This document shows positions 16,693-24,916 of a stretch of 64,000 nt of DNA, one piece after another. The notes beneath the pieces are model-generated. The model had not been told where the DNA came from, searched no databases, and saw only the letters and a program-made list of their open reading frames with translations. How positions within the stretch are numbered: the stretch's first letter is position 1; each line of letters begins with the position of its first letter. This stretch comes from Prescottella soli. Its GTDB lineage: Bacteria > Actinomycetota > Actinomycetes > Mycobacteriales > Mycobacteriaceae. The position numbers and the translations under genes were made by a program. The stretch lies in NCBI RefSeq assembly GCF_040024445.1, contig NZ_CP157276.1:4836001-4900000 (forward strand). The letters run 5' to 3'.

Positions 16693-18534
16693 TTACGGCA
16701 CCTGGCGCACGGCGCCCTTGTCGGCCGAGGTGGCCAGCGCGGCGTAGGCGCGCAGCGCCGTGGTCACGGTGCGCTGACGGTCGACGGGCTGCCACGGACG
16801 CTCGGACGCCTCCATCTTGGCGCGGCGCTGCGCGAGGGTCTCGTCGTCGACGAGGACCTCGAGGGTGCGGGTCGCGACGTCGATGCGGATCTGGTCGCCG
16901 TCCTCGACGAGGCCGATGACACCACCCGACGCGGCCTCGGGGGAGATGTGGCCGATCGACAGGCCGGACGTGCCGCCGGAGAAGCGGCCGTCGGTGATCA
17001 GGGCGCACACCTTGCCGAGCCCGGCGCCCTTGAGGAATGCGGTGGGGTGCAGCATCTCCTGCATGCCCGGACCGCCCTTGGGGCCCTCGTAGCGGACCAC
17101 GATGACGTCGCCCGGCTTGATCTGCTTCTGCAGGATCACCGAGACGGCAGCTTCCTGCGACTCGACGACGACGGCTGGGCCCTGGAACGAGAACAGTTCC
17201 TCGTCGATTCCGGCGGTCTTGAGGATCGCGCCGTCGACGGCGATGTTGCCGCGCAACACGCACAGGCCGCCTTCGACGGTGTAGGCGTGCTCCTTGTCGC
17301 GAATGCAGCCGCCCTCGGCGTCGGTGTCGAGCGCACTCCAGCGGTTGTTCGTCGAGAACGGCTCGGTGGTGCGCACGCCGCCGGGCGCCGCGTGGAAGAG
17401 CTCGAGGGCTTCGTCGCTCGCCTTGCCGGAGCGGATGTCCCACGTGTCGAGCCACTCGTCGAACGACTTGGTGTGCACGGTGGAGACGTCGGTCTCGAGC
17501 AGGCCGGCGCGGCGCAGCTCACCGAGCAGCGCGGGGATTCCACCGGCTCGGTGCACGTCCTCCATGTGGTAGTCCGAGTTGGGGGAGACCTTCGACAGGC
17601 ACGGCACCCGACGGCTGATCTCGTCGATGGTGCTCAGGTCGAAGTCGACCTCGCCCTCCTGCGCCGCGGCGAGCGTGTGCAGGACGGTGTTGGTGGAGCC
17701 GCCCATCGCGACGTCGAGCGCCATCGCGTTGCGGAACGCCTTGGGGGTGGCGATGTTCCGCGGCAGAACGGACTCGTCCTCGTCGCGGTAGTACCGCAGT
17801 GCGGCCTCGACGACGGTGGTCCCGGCGCGGCTGAACAGGGCACGACGGGCCTCGTGCGTCGCCAACGTCGAGCCGTTGCCGGGCAGGGCCAGGCCGAGGG
17901 CCTCGGTGAGGCAGTTCATCGAGTTCGCGGTGAACATGCCAGAGCAGGAACCGCACGTCGGGCACGCGCTGCGTTCGACCTCGTCGAGTCCCTCCTCGGA
18001 CACGGAGTCGTTGGCGCTCGCCGAGATCGCGGTGATCAGGTCGGTGGGGGCTTGCGCGACGCCGCCGACGACCACGGCCTTGCCGGCCTCCATCGGGCCA
18101 CCCGAGACGAAGACCGTCGGGATGTTCAGCCGCATCGCGGCATTGAGCATGCCGGGGGTGATTTTGTCGCAGTTCGAGATGCACACCAGCGCGTCGGCGG
18201 TGTGGGCGTTGACCATGTACTCGACGGAGTCGGCGATGATCTCGCGACTCGGGAGGGAGTACAGCATGCCGCCGTGGCCCATCGCGATGCCGTCGTCGAC
18301 CGCGATCGTGTGGAACTCGCGGGGCACGCCGCCGGCGGCGCGCACGGCCTCGGCGACGATCTCGCCCACGTTCTTCAGGTGGACGTGACCGGGGACGAAC
18401 TGCGTGTAGGAGTTCGCGATCGCGACGATCGGCTTACCGAAGTCGGAGTCCGTCATACCGGTGGCGCGCCAGAGCGAGCGGGCTCCGGCAGCGTTGCGTC
18501 CGACGGTGGTGGTGCGTGACCTGAGCGGGGGCAT
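16693..18534 (-). CDS. ilvD: Dihydroxy-acid dehydratase
   Basis: A 613-residue iron-sulfur dehydratase, third step of valine and isoleucine synthesis, which turns dihydroxy-acids into 2-oxo acids. The cluster ligand region is visible in [10 protein letters not shown] and [18 protein letters not shown], with the family start [21 protein letters not shown]. Length is typical for actinobacteria. The ATG at 18534 has GAAGGAA about five bases upstream. It is transcribed away from ilvBNC, about 0.95 kb from ilvB, and has its own terminator. Confidence 0.97.
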
Positions 18535-18721
18535 GGGCGATTCCTTCGTCGATCAGCGGTTCTCGGCGGCGGGCTGTGCGCGCCGAGCGCGGCGTAATTC
18601 GTAAACAGATGGGCCCGTGAAGGTGCTGGTCGGCTGGACCCGATTTCGGCTTGTGCGGCCGTCTCGTCATCTCCGGTGGGAGCGGGAGACATCCTGGTGG
18701 GACGCTACTCCCGCGCCCGGA

Positions 18722-19237
18722 TCAGTCGGTATTCGGCTCCGCGTCGGTGGACACGTCGGTGCCTGCCGATTCTGACTCGGCCCGGGCCTTCGCCCGCTCC
18801 GCCTCGCGGGCTGCGGCGTACGGATCGGTGACGCGGCCGCCGCTCGCGGAGGCCAACTGGGGCAGACGTCCGAAGGTCACCGTCGGCAGCGACACCTCGC
18901 CGCCCTCGACGAGGTCGGCCCGGGCCCATCCCCGCTTGGGGAAGCGGAAGCCCTTGATCTGATCCCACGATATGGACTGCGAGGAGAACGCGCGGCGCAG
19001 CTCGAGCCCCTCGGGCGTGACCGTGGTACGCACGCGCAGCACCCAGGCTCCGACGAGGAACGGGATCGCCAGCATCCAGCCGAAGGCTGCCGGCCACCCG
19101 AGTACCGGGAAGCTGGTGCAGAACAGCAGGAAGATGCACGCGATCAGCGCGAGCGGCGAAATCCGGATGACCTGTCGGCCGTCGTCGGGCGTGTGGGATG
19201 ATGACTGTGGTGGCACGGGCTGCTGAGGAGATGACAC
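18722..19237 (-). CDS. PH-domain membrane protein (Cfp6-like)
   Basis: About 171 residues: a short polar N-terminus, two adjacent hydrophobic segments (ALIACIFLLFCTSFPVLG, AFGWMLAIPFLVGAW), then a bacterial PH-like domain (TVTPEGLELRRAF, SISWDQIKGFRFPKRGW, VSLPTVTFGRLPQLA) and a charged tail. The family position and order match Rv3004 (cfp6) beside ilvB in mycobacteria. No enzymatic role is known. I chose the GTG at 19237 because TAAGAT (19271-19266) looks like its -10, which would leave the ATG at 19267 upstream of the transcript; 18722-19267 is the alternative. Confidence 0.75.
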   Translation of the reverse strand: MSSPQQPVPPQSSSHTPDDGRQVIRISPLALIACIFLLFCTSFPVLGWPAAFGWMLAIPFLVGAWVLRVRTTVTPEGLELRRAFSSQSISWDQIKGFRFPKRGWARADLVEGGEVSLPTVTFGRLPQLASASGGRVTDPYAAAREAERAKARAESESAGTDVSTDAEPNTD

Positions 19238-19265
19238 CTCTACATCTTCGCACTGCAGCCGAGGC

Positions 19266-19296
19266 ATCTTACATTCTGGGACAGCGCACTCACCAA
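19266..19296 (-). promoter_or_regulatory. Possible promoter of the PH-domain gene
   Basis: On the minus strand TTGGTG (19296-19291) and TAAGAT (19271-19266), 19 bases apart. It stands back to back with the ilvB promoter, the two -35 boxes being two bases apart. Confidence 0.4.
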
Positions 19297-19298
19297 AG

Positions 19299-19328
19299 TT
19301 GACTGTCTACCATTGGCGCGCCTACCGT
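19299..19328 (+). promoter_or_regulatory. Promoter of the ilvB leader and ilvBNC
   Basis: TTGACT (19299-19304), an 18-base spacer, and TACCGT (19323-19328). The leader GTG begins seven bases after the -10, so the transcript should begin at or near the first codon. Confidence 0.7.
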
Positions 19329-19335
19329 CGAGCGC

Positions 19336-19383
19336 GTGAAGCAGAATGAGTTGCTCGTAATCGGCCGGCGCGTCGTCGCCTGA
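19336..19383 (+). CDS. ilvB leader peptide (attenuator)
   Basis: A 15-codon ORF reading MKQNELLVIGRRVVA, ending in TGA. Six of 15 residues are Leu, Val or Ile (Leu-Leu-Val-Ile and Val-Val), the end products of the operon. The two Val codons fall in the left arm of a perfect 10-bp inverted repeat (GGCGCGTCGT 19367-19376; ACGACGCGCC 19409-19418). An intrinsic terminator follows. This is the layout of transcription attenuation by ribosome stalling, as described for ilvB in Corynebacterium glutamicum. No Shine-Dalgarno is present; the leader is probably translated from a leaderless transcript. Confidence 0.8.
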   Translation: MKQNELLVIGRRVVA

Positions 19384-19418
19384 GCCGGTTCCTACAACTC
19401 GCCAGATAACGACGCGCC

Positions 19419-19452
19419 ACCCTCGTACAGCTGATGCTGACGAGGGTTTTTT
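19419..19452 (+). terminator. Attenuator terminator upstream of ilvB
   Basis: Arms ACCCTCGT (19419-19426) and ACGAGGGT (19440-19447), extended inward by CAGC/GCTG with one bulge, directly followed by six T. It is the only hairpin in the window with so clear a T-run, and it lies between the leader ORF and ilvB, so it must be read through for ilvB to be made. Confidence 0.85.
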
Positions 19453-19485
19453 GTTGCCCGGAGCCAGAATCAAAGAGGATTTCCA

Positions 19486-21422
19486 GTGAGCGCACCAACC
19501 GCACGGCCTCAACCCACGCCGCGCAAGTCGGGAGCAGCGAGCCCGACCACCGCGGCCGCCGCTACGCAGACCGGTAACCGTCGTCAGGTCGCCCCCGAGC
19601 GGGTCACCGGCGCGCAGTCCGTGGTCCGCGCCCTCGAGGAGCTCGAGGTCGACACGGTGTTCGGTATCCCGGGCGGCGCCGTTCTCCCGGTGTACGACCC
19701 GCTCTTCGATTCGCAGAAGGTGCGCCACGTCCTGGTGCGGCACGAGCAGGGCGCGGGTCACGCCGCGACCGGCTACGCACAGGCGACCGGCAAGGTCGGT
19801 GTCTGCATGGCGACCTCCGGCCCGGGTGCGACCAACCTGGTGACGCCGCTCGCCGACGCGCAGATGGACTCCGTCCCCATCGTCGCGATCACCGGCCAGG
19901 TCGGCCGCGGCCTGATCGGCACCGACGCGTTCCAGGAAGCGGACATCTCCGGCATCACGATGCCGATCACCAAGCACAACTTCCTGATCACCGACGGTGT
20001 CGACATCCCGCGCATCCTCGCGGAGGCGTTCTACCTCGCGTCGAGCGGTCGCCCGGGCGCGGTCCTCGTCGACATCCCCAAGGACATCCTGCAGGCGCAG
20101 ACCACCTTCTCGTGGCCGCCGGAGATGCACCTGCCCGGCTACCGCCCGGTCACCAAGCCGCACGGCAAGCAGGTGCGCGAGGCCGCGCGCCTGATCGCCG
20201 AGGCCAAGTCCCCGGTGCTGTACGTCGGTGGCGGCGTGATCAAGGCCGAGGCGTCCGCCGAACTGCTCGAACTGGCCGAGCTGACCGGCATCCCCGTCGT
20301 CACGACCCTGATGGCGCGCGGCGCGTTCCCCGACAGCCACCAGCTCAACTGCGGCATGCCGGGCATGCACGGCACGGTCGCGGCCGTCGCCGCGCTGCAG
20401 AAGAGCGACCTGCTGATCACCCTCGGTGCGCGTTTCGACGACCGTGTCACCGGTCAGCTCGACTCGTTCGCGCCCGACGCCAAGGTCATCCACGCGGACA
20501 TCGATCCCGCGGAGATCGGCAAGAACCGCCACGCGGACGTCCCGATCGTGGGCGACTGCAAGGAGGTCATCACCGAGCTGATCGAGGCGATCCGCGCCGA
20601 CCAGGCGACGGGCACGACCTTCGACCTCACCGAGTGGTGGGCGTACCTCGACGGCATTCGTCGCACGTACCCGCTGGCCTACGACCGTCCCGCCGACGGT
20701 GCGCTGTCACCCGAGTACGTGATCCAGGCCGTCGGCCGGCTCGCGGGCCCGGACGCCATCTACTGCGCCGGTGTCGGTCAGCACCAGATGTGGGCGGCGC
20801 AGTTCGTCAAGTACGAGAAGCCGCGCACGTGGCTGAACTCGGGTGGTCTCGGCACGATGGGCTACGCGGTGCCGGCCGCGATGGGCGCCAAGATGGGCCT
20901 GCCGGACCGTGAGGTGTGGGCCATCGACGGTGACGGCTGCTTCCAGATGACGAACCAGGAACTGGCCACGTGTGCCGTCGAGGGCGTGCCGATCAAGGTC
21001 GCGCTCATCAACAACGGCAACCTGGGCATGGTCCGCCAGTGGCAGACGCTGTTCTACGACGAGCGCTACTCCAACACCAACCTGGGCACGCACGGCGCCG
21101 TGCGCATCCCGGACTTCGTCAAGCTGGCCGAGGCGCTGGGCTGCGTCGGTATCCGTGTCGAGCGCGAGGAGGACGTCGAGGACGCCATCCGCACCGCGCA
21201 GTCGATCAACGACAAGCCCGTCGTCATCGACTTCATCGTCGGCAAGGACGCGCAGGTGTGGCCGATGGTCGCCGCCGGCACCAGCAACGACGAGATCATG
21301 GCGGCGCGGGGCATCCGGCCGCTGTTCGACGAGGACGAGGCTGCTGCCGAGCCCGCAACCATCCACGAGGCCATGGAACGCGAGCAGCGTGCCGGTGAGG
21401 CCGAAGCCGGAGAGGATCGCCA

Positions 21423-21426
<4 letters not shown>
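19486..21426 (+). CDS. ilvB: Acetolactate synthase, large (catalytic) subunit
   Basis: A 646-residue thiamine diphosphate enzyme, the first common step of Val, Ile and Leu synthesis. It has the N-terminal ThDP domain with the catalytic Glu ([21 protein letters not shown]), the FAD-linked central domain, and the ThDP/Mg motif [15 protein letters not shown] through NNGNLG. The first ~35 residues are a polar, Ala/Pro/Thr-rich extension. GTG start with AGAGGA six bases upstream. Its stop overlaps the ilvN start in GTGA. Expression should respond to the attenuator just upstream. Confidence 0.97.
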
Positions 21427-23004
<1,578 letters not shown>

Positions 23005-23323
23005 TCCACAGCTGACAGCTTCGGCCCGAGGGGCGCGCGTCCGGTACGCGTGGCCCTCGGGCCGAAGTGGTTTTCCCGGTGTGGCGTGAATCTCCGTTTT
23101 CTGCATCGGGGTGTCCACTATCTGGTAAGGGATACCCGCCCTGCGGAATCGCTCGGTCCGCCCCACTAAACTGATTTCCGACTGCGGCCATTCGCGCGCG
23201 CCCTCGCGGTGCCCGGCCGTGGACATCACGCTCGACCTTCGAAGACGATCCTCCGAGGACATCTTCGAAGACATTGACAGACATTTACAGACACAGCCCG
23301 ACACCGAACTAGGGAGTTGACTC
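23005..23323. other. 319-base ilvC-serA gap
   Basis: Holds the ilvC terminator, a possible -10 TAAACT (23166-23171), and two exact copies of the palindrome CTTCGAAG (23237-23244 and 23263-23270), 26 bases apart, with a third short palindrome (TCCTCCGAGGA) between them. Short GACAGACA/ACAGACAC repeats follow. No gene is seen. It looks like a regulated promoter region for serA. Confidence 0.5.
23019..23074 (+). terminator. Terminator of ilvBNC
   Basis: Perfect 14-bp arms CTTCGGCCCGAGGG (23019-23032) and its complement (23054-23067), followed after TGG by four T, starting 14 bases after the ilvC stop. Confidence 0.85.
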
Positions 23324-24916
23324 GTGAGCCAGAATGGCCGCCCCGTTGTCCTGATCGCCGACAAGCTCGCACAATCGACCGTCGATGCGCTCGGAGACGG
23401 TGTCGAGGTCCGCTGGGTCGACGGCCCGGACCGTCCCGCGCTGCTCGCGGCTGTCCCCGAGGCCGACGCGCTGCTCGTCCGCTCCGCCACCACGGTCGAC
23501 GCCGAGGTGCTCGCCGCCGCGACGAAGCTGAAGATCGTCGGTCGCGCCGGTGTCGGCCTCGACAACGTCGACATCCCGGCCGCCACCGAGCGTGGCGTCA
23601 TGGTCGTGAACGCGCCGACCTCCAACATCCACTCGGCCGCCGAGCACGCCGTCTCGCTGCTGCTGTCGACCGCCCGCCAGATTCCGGCCGCGGACCGTAC
23701 GCTGCGTGAGAAGACCTGGAAGCGTTCGAGCTTCAACGGCACCGAGATCCTCGGCAAGACCGTCGGCGTCGTCGGCCTGGGCCGCATCGGCCAGCTGTTC
23801 GCACAGCGCCTGGCCGCGTTCGAGACCGACATCATCGCGTACGACCCCTACCTGCCGGCCGCCCGCGCCGCGCAGCTGGGCATCGAGCTGGTCGACATCG
23901 ACGAGCTGGTCGAGCGCGCCGACTTCATCTCGGTGCACCTGCCCAAGACCAAGGAGACCGCGGGTCTGCTGAACGCCGAGCGTCTGGCCAAGGCCAAGGA
24001 CGGCGTCATCATCGTCAACGCCGCCCGCGGTGGTCTGATCGACGAGGACGCGCTGTACGACGCGCTCGTGAACGGCAAGGTCCGCGCCGCCGGCCTCGAC
24101 GTGTTCAACACCGAGCCGTGCACCGACTCCAAGCTGTTCGACCTCGACAACGTCGTCGTCACCCCGCACCTCGGTGCATCCACCTCGGAGGCGCAGGACC
24201 GCGCCGGCACCGATGTTGCCAAGAGCGTCCTGCTGGCCCTCGCCGGCGAGTTCGTGCCGGACGCCGTCAACGTCTCCGGTGGCCCGGTCGGCGAAGAGGT
24301 CGCCCCGTGGCTCGAGCTGGTCCGCAAGCTGGGCCTGCTCGCCGGTACCCTGTCGCCCGAGGCCGTCCAGAACGTTCAGGTCGTCGCGAGCGGCGAGCTG
24401 TCCGCCGAGAACGTCGAGATCCTCGGCCTCGCCGCGCTGCGCGGCCTGTTCTCCGCGAGCAGCGACGAGGCCGTCACGTTCGTCAACGCCCCGCAGCTCG
24501 CCGAGCAGCGCGGCGTGAGCGTCGAGGTCGAGAAGCACAGCGAGGCACAGACGCACCGGAGCGCCGTCGAGGTCCGCGCGGTCGCCGCCGACGGCACCGT
24601 CACCACCGTCGCGGGCGCGCTGACCGGCCTGCAGCAGGTCGAGAAGATCGTCAACATCAACGGCCGCAGCTTCGACCTGCGCGCCGAGGGCCACAACATC
24701 GTCGTGCACTACACGGACCGTCCGGGCGTGCTCGGCGTGCTGGGTACCGTCCTCGGCACCGCCGGCATCGACATCCAGGCCGCGGCGCTGAGCCAGGACG
24801 TCGAGGGTGAGGGCGCCACCGTCATCCTGCGTGTCGATCAGGTCGTCGCCGACGCCGAGGTCGCGCAGATCGTGGAGAAGCTGGACGCGCGCGTCGCGCA
24901 GGTCGACCTGTCCTGA
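23324..24916 (+). CDS. serA: D-3-phosphoglycerate dehydrogenase
   Basis: A 530-residue dehydrogenase, first step of serine synthesis (3-phosphoglycerate to phosphohydroxypyruvate, NAD+). Motifs: GRAGVGLDNVD, the dinucleotide loop VGLGRIGQLFAQRLAAF, INAARGG-type catalytic block (IIVNAARGGLIDEDAL) and the catalytic His in PHLGASTSEAQ. It is the long type, with an intervening ASB domain (about residues 320-450) and a C-terminal ACT domain (HNIVVHYTDRPGVLGVLGTV) for serine feedback. GTG start with AGGGAG upstream. Confidence 0.97.
   Translation: MSQNGRPVVLIADKLAQSTVDALGDGVEVRWVDGPDRPALLAAVPEADALLVRSATTVDAEVLAAATKLKIVGRAGVGLDNVDIPAATERGVMVVNAPTSNIHSAAEHAVSLLLSTARQIPAADRTLREKTWKRSSFNGTEILGKTVGVVGLGRIGQLFAQRLAAFETDIIAYDPYLPAARAAQLGIELVDIDELVERADFISVHLPKTKETAGLLNAERLAKAKDGVIIVNAARGGLIDEDALYDALVNGKVRAAGLDVFNTEPCTDSKLFDLDNVVVTPHLGASTSEAQDRAGTDVAKSVLLALAGEFVPDAVNVSGGPVGEEVAPWLELVRKLGLLAGTLSPEAVQNVQVVASGELSAENVEILGLAALRGLFSASSDEAVTFVNAPQLAEQRGVSVEVEKHSEAQTHRSAVEVRAVAADGTVTTVAGALTGLQQVEKIVNINGRSFDLRAEGHNIVVHYTDRPGVLGVLGTVLGTAGIDIQAAALSQDVEGEGATVILRVDQVVADAEVAQIVEKLDARVAQVDLS

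Follow-up and report, generated by a model that had tools for sequence, protein, structure and literature searches.

Evidence for a conserved, probably leaderless branched-chain amino acid attenuator upstream of ilvBNC in Prescottella soli and its family

We analysed the DNA upstream of ilvBNC in the window, a stretch of 64,000 nucleotides from the genome of Prescottella soli (one contig, 5.48 Mb). The operon is in all likelihood governed by a transcription attenuator that is read by a ribosome entering a leaderless transcript at its very 5′ end. As in trp-type attenuators, a short ORF rich in branched-chain amino acid (BCAA) codons precedes the operon, and an intrinsic terminator lies between this ORF and ilvB. 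Comparison with related genomes turns what began as a guess from a single genome into a family-wide, testable switch in which the first ribosome would be the sensor. The features are as follows; the promoter elements and the Shine-Dalgarno-like word are read from the sequence.

19299..19304, forward strand: -35 element TTGACT, identical in all 14 genomes of the genus
19323..19328, forward strand: -10 element TACCGT; a TAnnnT word stands at the equivalent place in 139 of 144 family loci
19336..19383, forward strand: leader ORF ilvL, predicted leaderless, 15 codons encoding MKQNELLVIGRRVVA, with a GTG start and a TGA stop at 19381-19383
19348..19400, forward strand: hairpin H1, with outer stem GAGTTG:CAACTC and middle stem AATCGGC:GCCGGTT, in which the sensor codons pair with sequence after the stop codon
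19351..19362, forward strand: candidate sensor codons TTG CTC GTA ATC (Leu6 Leu7 Val8 Ile9), with GTA at 19357-19359
19367..19376, forward strand: 5′ arm of P1, GGCGCGTCGT, within codons 11-14
19409..19418, forward strand: 3′ arm of P1, ACGACGCGCC, ending one nucleotide before the CCCTCG of the terminator
19419..19452, forward strand: intrinsic terminator P2, A/CCCTCGT..ACGAGGG/T followed by a T run
19474..19479, forward strand: Shine-Dalgarno-like AGAGGA of ilvB
19486..21426, forward strand: ilvB, acetohydroxyacid synthase large subunit, with a GTG start and TPP enzyme domains
21423..21926, forward strand: ilvN, small subunit, with ALS_ss_C and ACT domains
21877..23004, forward strand: ilvC ORF, ketol-acid reductoisomerase with KARI domains; the coordinates are those of the ORF and the start codon is approximate

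An 18-nt spacer separates the two promoter elements, and the leader GTG (19336) follows the -10 element after a gap of 7 nt; transcription is predicted to start at about 19335-19336. Leu, Val or Ile occupies codons 6, 7, 8, 9, 13 and 14 of the leader. The arms GGCGCGTCGT and ACGACGCGCC make up an inverted repeat of 10 bp without a mismatch, and the terminator pairs CCCTCGT (19420-19426) with ACGAGGG (19440-19446) and an inner CAGC with GCTG ahead of six T (19447-19452). These readings bear out the original prediction of a 15-codon ORF with six Leu, Val or Ile residues whose GTG lies seven bases after the -10 hexamer, and of a well-placed promoter and a terminator with six T in front of ilvB. 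The repeat described there is indeed perfect, and it very nearly includes both Val codons as had been said: its 5′ arm takes in the complete GTC codon of Val13 and two of the three bases of the Val14 codon.

A strict consensus scan of 18900-19700 reported neither a promoter nor a terminator. By eye, the -10 element agrees with the Escherichia coli consensus at three of its six positions, and the terminator contains a bulge as well as a long loop. An Rfam scan of 18000-24000 returned two chance microRNA matches only, with E values of up to 1. Genome-wide, TTGAC-N19-TANNNT occurs 26 times, against 22 for the reversed control, so the promoter motif is uninformative by itself. At least six Leu, Val or Ile residues in 14 codons would be met with a probability of about 0.06 in any single ORF; leader composition alone is therefore little proof, and conservation has to carry the case. 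When 19329-19452 was shuffled 5,000 times with its dinucleotides kept, an inverted repeat of 10 bp arose in 40 cases and a 7-bp stem with five T after it in none.

We searched 201 genomes of the GTDB family and read 144 regions upstream of ilvB, made up of 14 loci from the genus and 100 plus 30 further family loci. Among the 80 loci kept, the best named IlvB relative is that of Rhodococcus zopfii (91%). The promoter, 7-nt gap, ORF, inverted repeat and terminator are present in all 14 genus genomes, the window's own included; a small number of bases from the stop codon to CAACTC and the spacing 5′ of ilvB vary within the genus, and the inverted repeat of L089 has 9 rather than 10 pairs. That close relatives might have lost the branched-chain codons had been named as a refuting observation; this was not seen, the Leu-Leu-Val-(Ile or Leu) block being present in 14/14.

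Across the family, a BCAA upstream ORF (uORF) with TAnnnT 6-8 nt before its start was found at 139 of 144 loci, 133 by script and 6 by a recheck under the same spacing rule. Because the script required TAnnnT within 5-9 nt, its 133 loci were selected for the hexamer, and 139/144 is the fair figure; L226 is counted among the 133 although its peptide is doubtful. Within the scripted set the gap from -10 to start is 7 nt in 109 loci, 8 in 19 and 6 in 5, and a TTGA-type hexamer lies before the -10 element at 18 nt in 122 loci and at 17 nt in 12. As a control, 5 of 1,125 other ATG or GTG triplets in those regions have TAnnnT at 6-8 nt. By a definition independent of the -10 element, TTGAC precedes a start by 36-39 nt at 164 of 187 BCAA-block loci from the family and other actinomycetes, as a raw count. 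A Shine-Dalgarno-like word precedes the start of the leader in 0 of the 133 scripted loci, as expected of leaderless mRNAs, whereas such a word precedes the approximate start of ilvB in 118 of 133. The prediction that the leader ORF is leaderless is thus well supported by sequence comparison. Named loci with this layout come from Rhodococcus, Nocardia, Hoyosella and Mycobacterium, alongside many other genera of the family. Leaders of this type are missing from five of the 144 regions (L161, L224, L225, L227 and L228). At L161, 5′ of ilvB in genome G034, the uORF start and the -10 element are gone by eye, the sensor codon is GTG and a terminator-like hairpin is kept; this is apparently a decayed copy of the leader.

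Codon choice points to the part of the leader that is sensed. Of the 104 Val codons that the block contains in 84 distinct family uORFs, 103 are GTA, a codon that makes up 2.5% of 8,318 Val codons sampled in this genome, in which alone its rarity was measured. The Leu codons of the block are CTC in 104 of 146 cases and CTG in 1 of 146, and CTG accounts for 49.5% of Leu codons in this genome; the Ile codons are ATC (50), ATT (24) and ATA (5). Val13 and Val14, which the original prediction had emphasized, are common GTC codons inside P1 and vary among relatives. The likely sensor is instead Leu6-Leu7-Val8(GTA)-Ile9, with the rare valine codon GTA the likely trigger of the switch.

We examined pairing in natural leaders by comparing native arms with arms swapped between leaders. 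The 136 leaders were reduced to 110 distinct ones by omitting those that lack a T run (L226, L231, L232 and L233) as well as repeats and two pieces of 58 nt; 52 of the 110 were chosen for alignment. Swap tests were preferred to column-by-column G-test covariation, which mixed true and spurious pairs because the hairpin loop aligns badly. For the P1 arms the native score is 26.24 against 24.75 after swapping (sd 0.17, maximum 25.15; 110 distinct leaders). P1 ends 1 nt from CCCTCG in 90 of the 110 leaders and two in 8, and runs into the stem in 12. In the 52 aligned leaders, 94.2% of the cells of P2 are paired and 3 of its 12 pairs have changed on both sides; for P1 and P2 jointly, 92.7% of cells are paired, with 50 double-sided changes against 22.7 in shuffles that ignore relatedness.

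The inverted repeat and the terminator of the original prediction stand, and to these our analysis adds a third element that it had missed, hairpin H1. The outer stem of H1 scores 13.56 natively and 11.64 when swapped (sd 0.34, maximum 12.57; 45 distinct 5′ arms), and the middle stem 13.98 against 12.74 (sd 0.18, maximum 13.19; 90 distinct cases). The middle stem forms in 94 of 102 leaders, compared with 28 of 102 with shuffled tails. Matched changes include GAGCTGC:GCAGCTC, GACGCT:AGCGTC and CGACTTGTA:TACAAGTCG, and also GTACTCGG:CCGAGTAC; the outer stem is weak in some leaders, such as L144, L194 and L199. Judged by these comparisons, both stems of H1 are co-adapted across the family, with the proviso that some influence of relatedness persists in swap tests.

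Two further pairings were considered and set aside. A Breaker-type antiterminator between 19398-19405 (CTCGCCAG) and 19437-19444 (CTGACGAG), with 7 of 8 pairs by eye, was rejected when native pairing of the loop with the 3′ arm of the terminator proved no better than in controls (-13.79 kcal/mol native, -14.06 swapped and -14.49 shuffled in 110 leaders). An extension of P1 into the base of the terminator through the GG of the Gly codon can pair in 48 of 52 leaders; it was not adopted because both sides are near-invariant, giving no covariation, and because an internal loop is needed in this window.

Folding was then modelled by ribosome position. Because the 5′ arm of P1 is also part of H1, the two hairpins are mutually exclusive. 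When the transcript of this leader ends at nt 66-80, it folds as H1 (-25.0 kcal/mol) with the first 12 nt unpaired, and without a ribosome H1 is complete before the 3′ arm of P1 is transcribed. At equilibrium, P1 displaces H1 in the free leader once that arm has been made (P1 probability 0.99 at 83 nt), so an off state in the absence of a ribosome requires H1 to open slowly. With a modelled ribosome on codons 6-8, the outer strand of H1 is masked and 5-10 of the 10 P1 pairs remain, 5 of 10 when GTA is in the A site with a 15-nt leading edge. At Ile9, 2-6 P1 pairs are left, and past Ile9 and at the stop codon P1 is lost. In silico, the leader thus has the alternative hairpin, dependent on ribosome position, that characterizes a trp-type attenuator.

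The terminator behaves differently in these models. Its equilibrium probability in this leader is 1.00 at every ribosome position, and across the 110 leaders its 5′ arm is paired downstream with a probability of 0.95-0.96, whichever of the three states is modelled. At equilibrium, then, no ribosome position was found to exclude the terminator, in this leader or in the 110. P1 can coexist with the terminator in these models, which show no simple antiterminator of the exclusive kind.

By analogy with described attenuators, H1 would be the antiantiterminator and P1 the antiterminator. The ribosome that loads at the 5′ end of the predicted leaderless RNA would be the sensor. When BCAAs are plentiful, it would pass Leu-Leu-Val(GTA)-Ile, reach the stop codon and cover the 5′ arm of P1; P1 could then not form and the terminator would act. 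When they are short, the ribosome would stall on the sensor codons, so that H1 would open, P1 could form in large part and RNA polymerase would continue into ilvB. With no ribosome, H1 would form first and keep P1 closed, leaving the operon off. The sequences show the parts of this scheme, their conservation, the co-adaptation of H1 and P1 and the rarity of the sensor codon; we infer where the RNA begins, that the leader is translated and the ribosome stalls, in which order the hairpins fold and that P1 opposes termination. An abutting P1 might act through a steric clash with the RNA exit channel, through stacking or through slow escape from H1. We suggest, tentatively and as one possibility among several, that the leaders represent an old actinomycete device of three hairpins and leaderless start, with fixed geometry and a near-invariant rare GUA codon, in which an antiterminator that mostly abuts the terminator acts without strand competition. 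The 110 distinct natural leaders are a resource for asking how a non-overlapping P1 could prevent termination.

A leaderless short polycysteine ORF is reportedly an amino-acid sensor in mycobacteria, to go by the title of work by Canestrari from 2020; such polycysteine uORF attenuators would respond to cysteine, and the leader described here to branched-chain amino acids. Closer parallels are found in the published accounts of ilvB leaders. In Corynebacterium glutamicum, transcription of ilvBNC begins one nucleotide away from the start codon of the leader, a Val-to-Ala change in the leader abolishes valine-dependent expression and loss of the leader start codon lowers expression by 80% (PMC11857589, citing Morbach 2000). 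The off, on and off states proposed above for an absent, stalled and finished ribosome agree with the start-codon and Val-to-Ala results. The C. glutamicum attenuator likewise has a 15-codon BCAA leader (peptide MTIIRLVVVTARRLP, compared with MKQNELLVIGRRVVA here), a GUA control codon, and an antiantiterminator H1, antiterminator H2 and terminator H3 in the same order. It differs in that H2 overlaps the base of the terminator by GCC, whereas P1 stops one nucleotide short; an overlap of the C. glutamicum type was not found in this window.

The ilvB-II motif, reported from Corynebacterium (PMC10272879), is alike by description in having a uORF over P1 and a terminator P2 with a U run before ilvB, but an antiterminator between loop and P2, of the kind drawn in that report, is not supported by the swap test in our 110 leaders. 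The ilvB1 attenuator of Mycobacterium tuberculosis (PMC13236596) has a BCAA uORF in which GUA is the regulatory codon, with a terminator that lies between the promoter and ilvB1NC, and differs in its LVVI block. In Streptomyces lividans, ilvL (MRTRILVLGKRVG) is reported to be transcribed leaderless and to be followed by hairpins and a U-rich segment ahead of ilvBHC (PMC8079986); the Streptomyces loci that we examined have no TAnnnT -10 element at the expected distance, yet have TTGAC at the same distance. A leaderless ilvB leader is also reported for Corynebacterium diphtheriae (PMC5784534), and ilvB leader peptides with terminators were predicted in Corynebacterium, Mycobacterium and Streptomyces by Seliverstov 2005 (PMC1262725). 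Further related literature is PMC4633059, PMC3890552, PMC4046766 and PMC11133741. Leaderless or near-leaderless ilvB leaders are thus already known, by these reports, from C. glutamicum, C. diphtheriae and S. lividans. Among the titles listed in our search of a literature library, no paper on the Rhodococcus ilvB leader was found, which is not proof of absence. The present analysis extends the Corynebacterium layout to Rhodococcus, Nocardia, Hoyosella, Mycobacterium and many further genera of the family, and an ilvB attenuator offers a handle for valine production.

The preference for the terminator in every modelled state could also mean that the uORF and terminator are real but control is not classical, with constant readthrough and regulation through initiation or another signal, such as ppGpp. 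Replacement of leader codons of Streptomyces coelicolor ilvB is reported to be without effect (PMC1262725), which would fit. Against such control stand the GTA at 103 of 104 block valines and the co-adaptation of the sensor codons with sequence after the stop codon, and codon replacement is reported to have abolished the response both in C. glutamicum (PMC11857589) and in M. tuberculosis ilvB1 (PMC13236596). We consider non-classical control unlikely.

Rather less probable still is a leader ORF that is not leaderless, the transcript starting upstream and the ribosome being loaded through a weak site or by scanning. The 5′ end is predicted here from the sequence, at a -10 element that fits the E. 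coli consensus at just three positions and in a region where the strict scan gave no promoter. The 6-8 nt gap in 139 of 144 loci and the lack of a Shine-Dalgarno-like word before all 133 leader starts argue against a longer transcript, as do the leaderless transcripts reported from C. diphtheriae, S. lividans and, one nucleotide off, C. glutamicum. The recurrence of an LLVIGRRV-like core across the family raises the further thought that the leader is conserved as the coding sequence of a functional peptide and is not an attenuator. However, the RRV codons form the P1 arm and are co-adapted with non-coding sequence, the conserved residues follow RNA pairing and codon choice, with the valine codon almost fixed as GTA, and the N-terminal part of the peptide drifts; we give this explanation very little weight, the least of the three. 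The reading that we favour remains a leaderless attenuator in which the ribosome senses BCAA supply.

Several family leaders depart from the common form. The uORFs of L218 and L223 (genus g8) consist of no more than MREQLLEVII or MREQLLEVRI and end immediately behind the sensor codons, which places the P1-like 5′ arm beyond the reading frame; these leaders are a natural test of the ribosome-position model. In genus g29, the uORFs of L205 and L208 (MDNGMLVVAHCALVVA and MDNGMLVVAPCALVVA) keep LVV, have lost the GRRV core and end in ALVVA, a second branched-chain cluster. Those of L206, L213, L215, L219, L220 and L222, also from g29, are longer (21-23 codons) and stop near the 3′ arm of P1, so that a ribosome at the stop codon would mask the other arm of P1.

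On the opposite strand near ilvBNC lie ilvD and a gene for a bacterial PH-domain protein. The latter, a divergent bPH_6 gene (18722-19267, reverse strand), starts 31 bases from the -35 element of ilvB. Directly after ilvC, at 23018-23068 of the window, is a strong G+C-rich inverted repeat, the site of a chance match to a microRNA model, which possibly marks the end of the ilvBNC operon. Elsewhere in the same genome, leuA (G000:C1:2502285) has a leucine uORF upstream, MQRALLLGCRGGF (at about 1259-1300 of L254); TACAGT stands seven bases 5′ of its ATG, and this uORF looks leaderless too.
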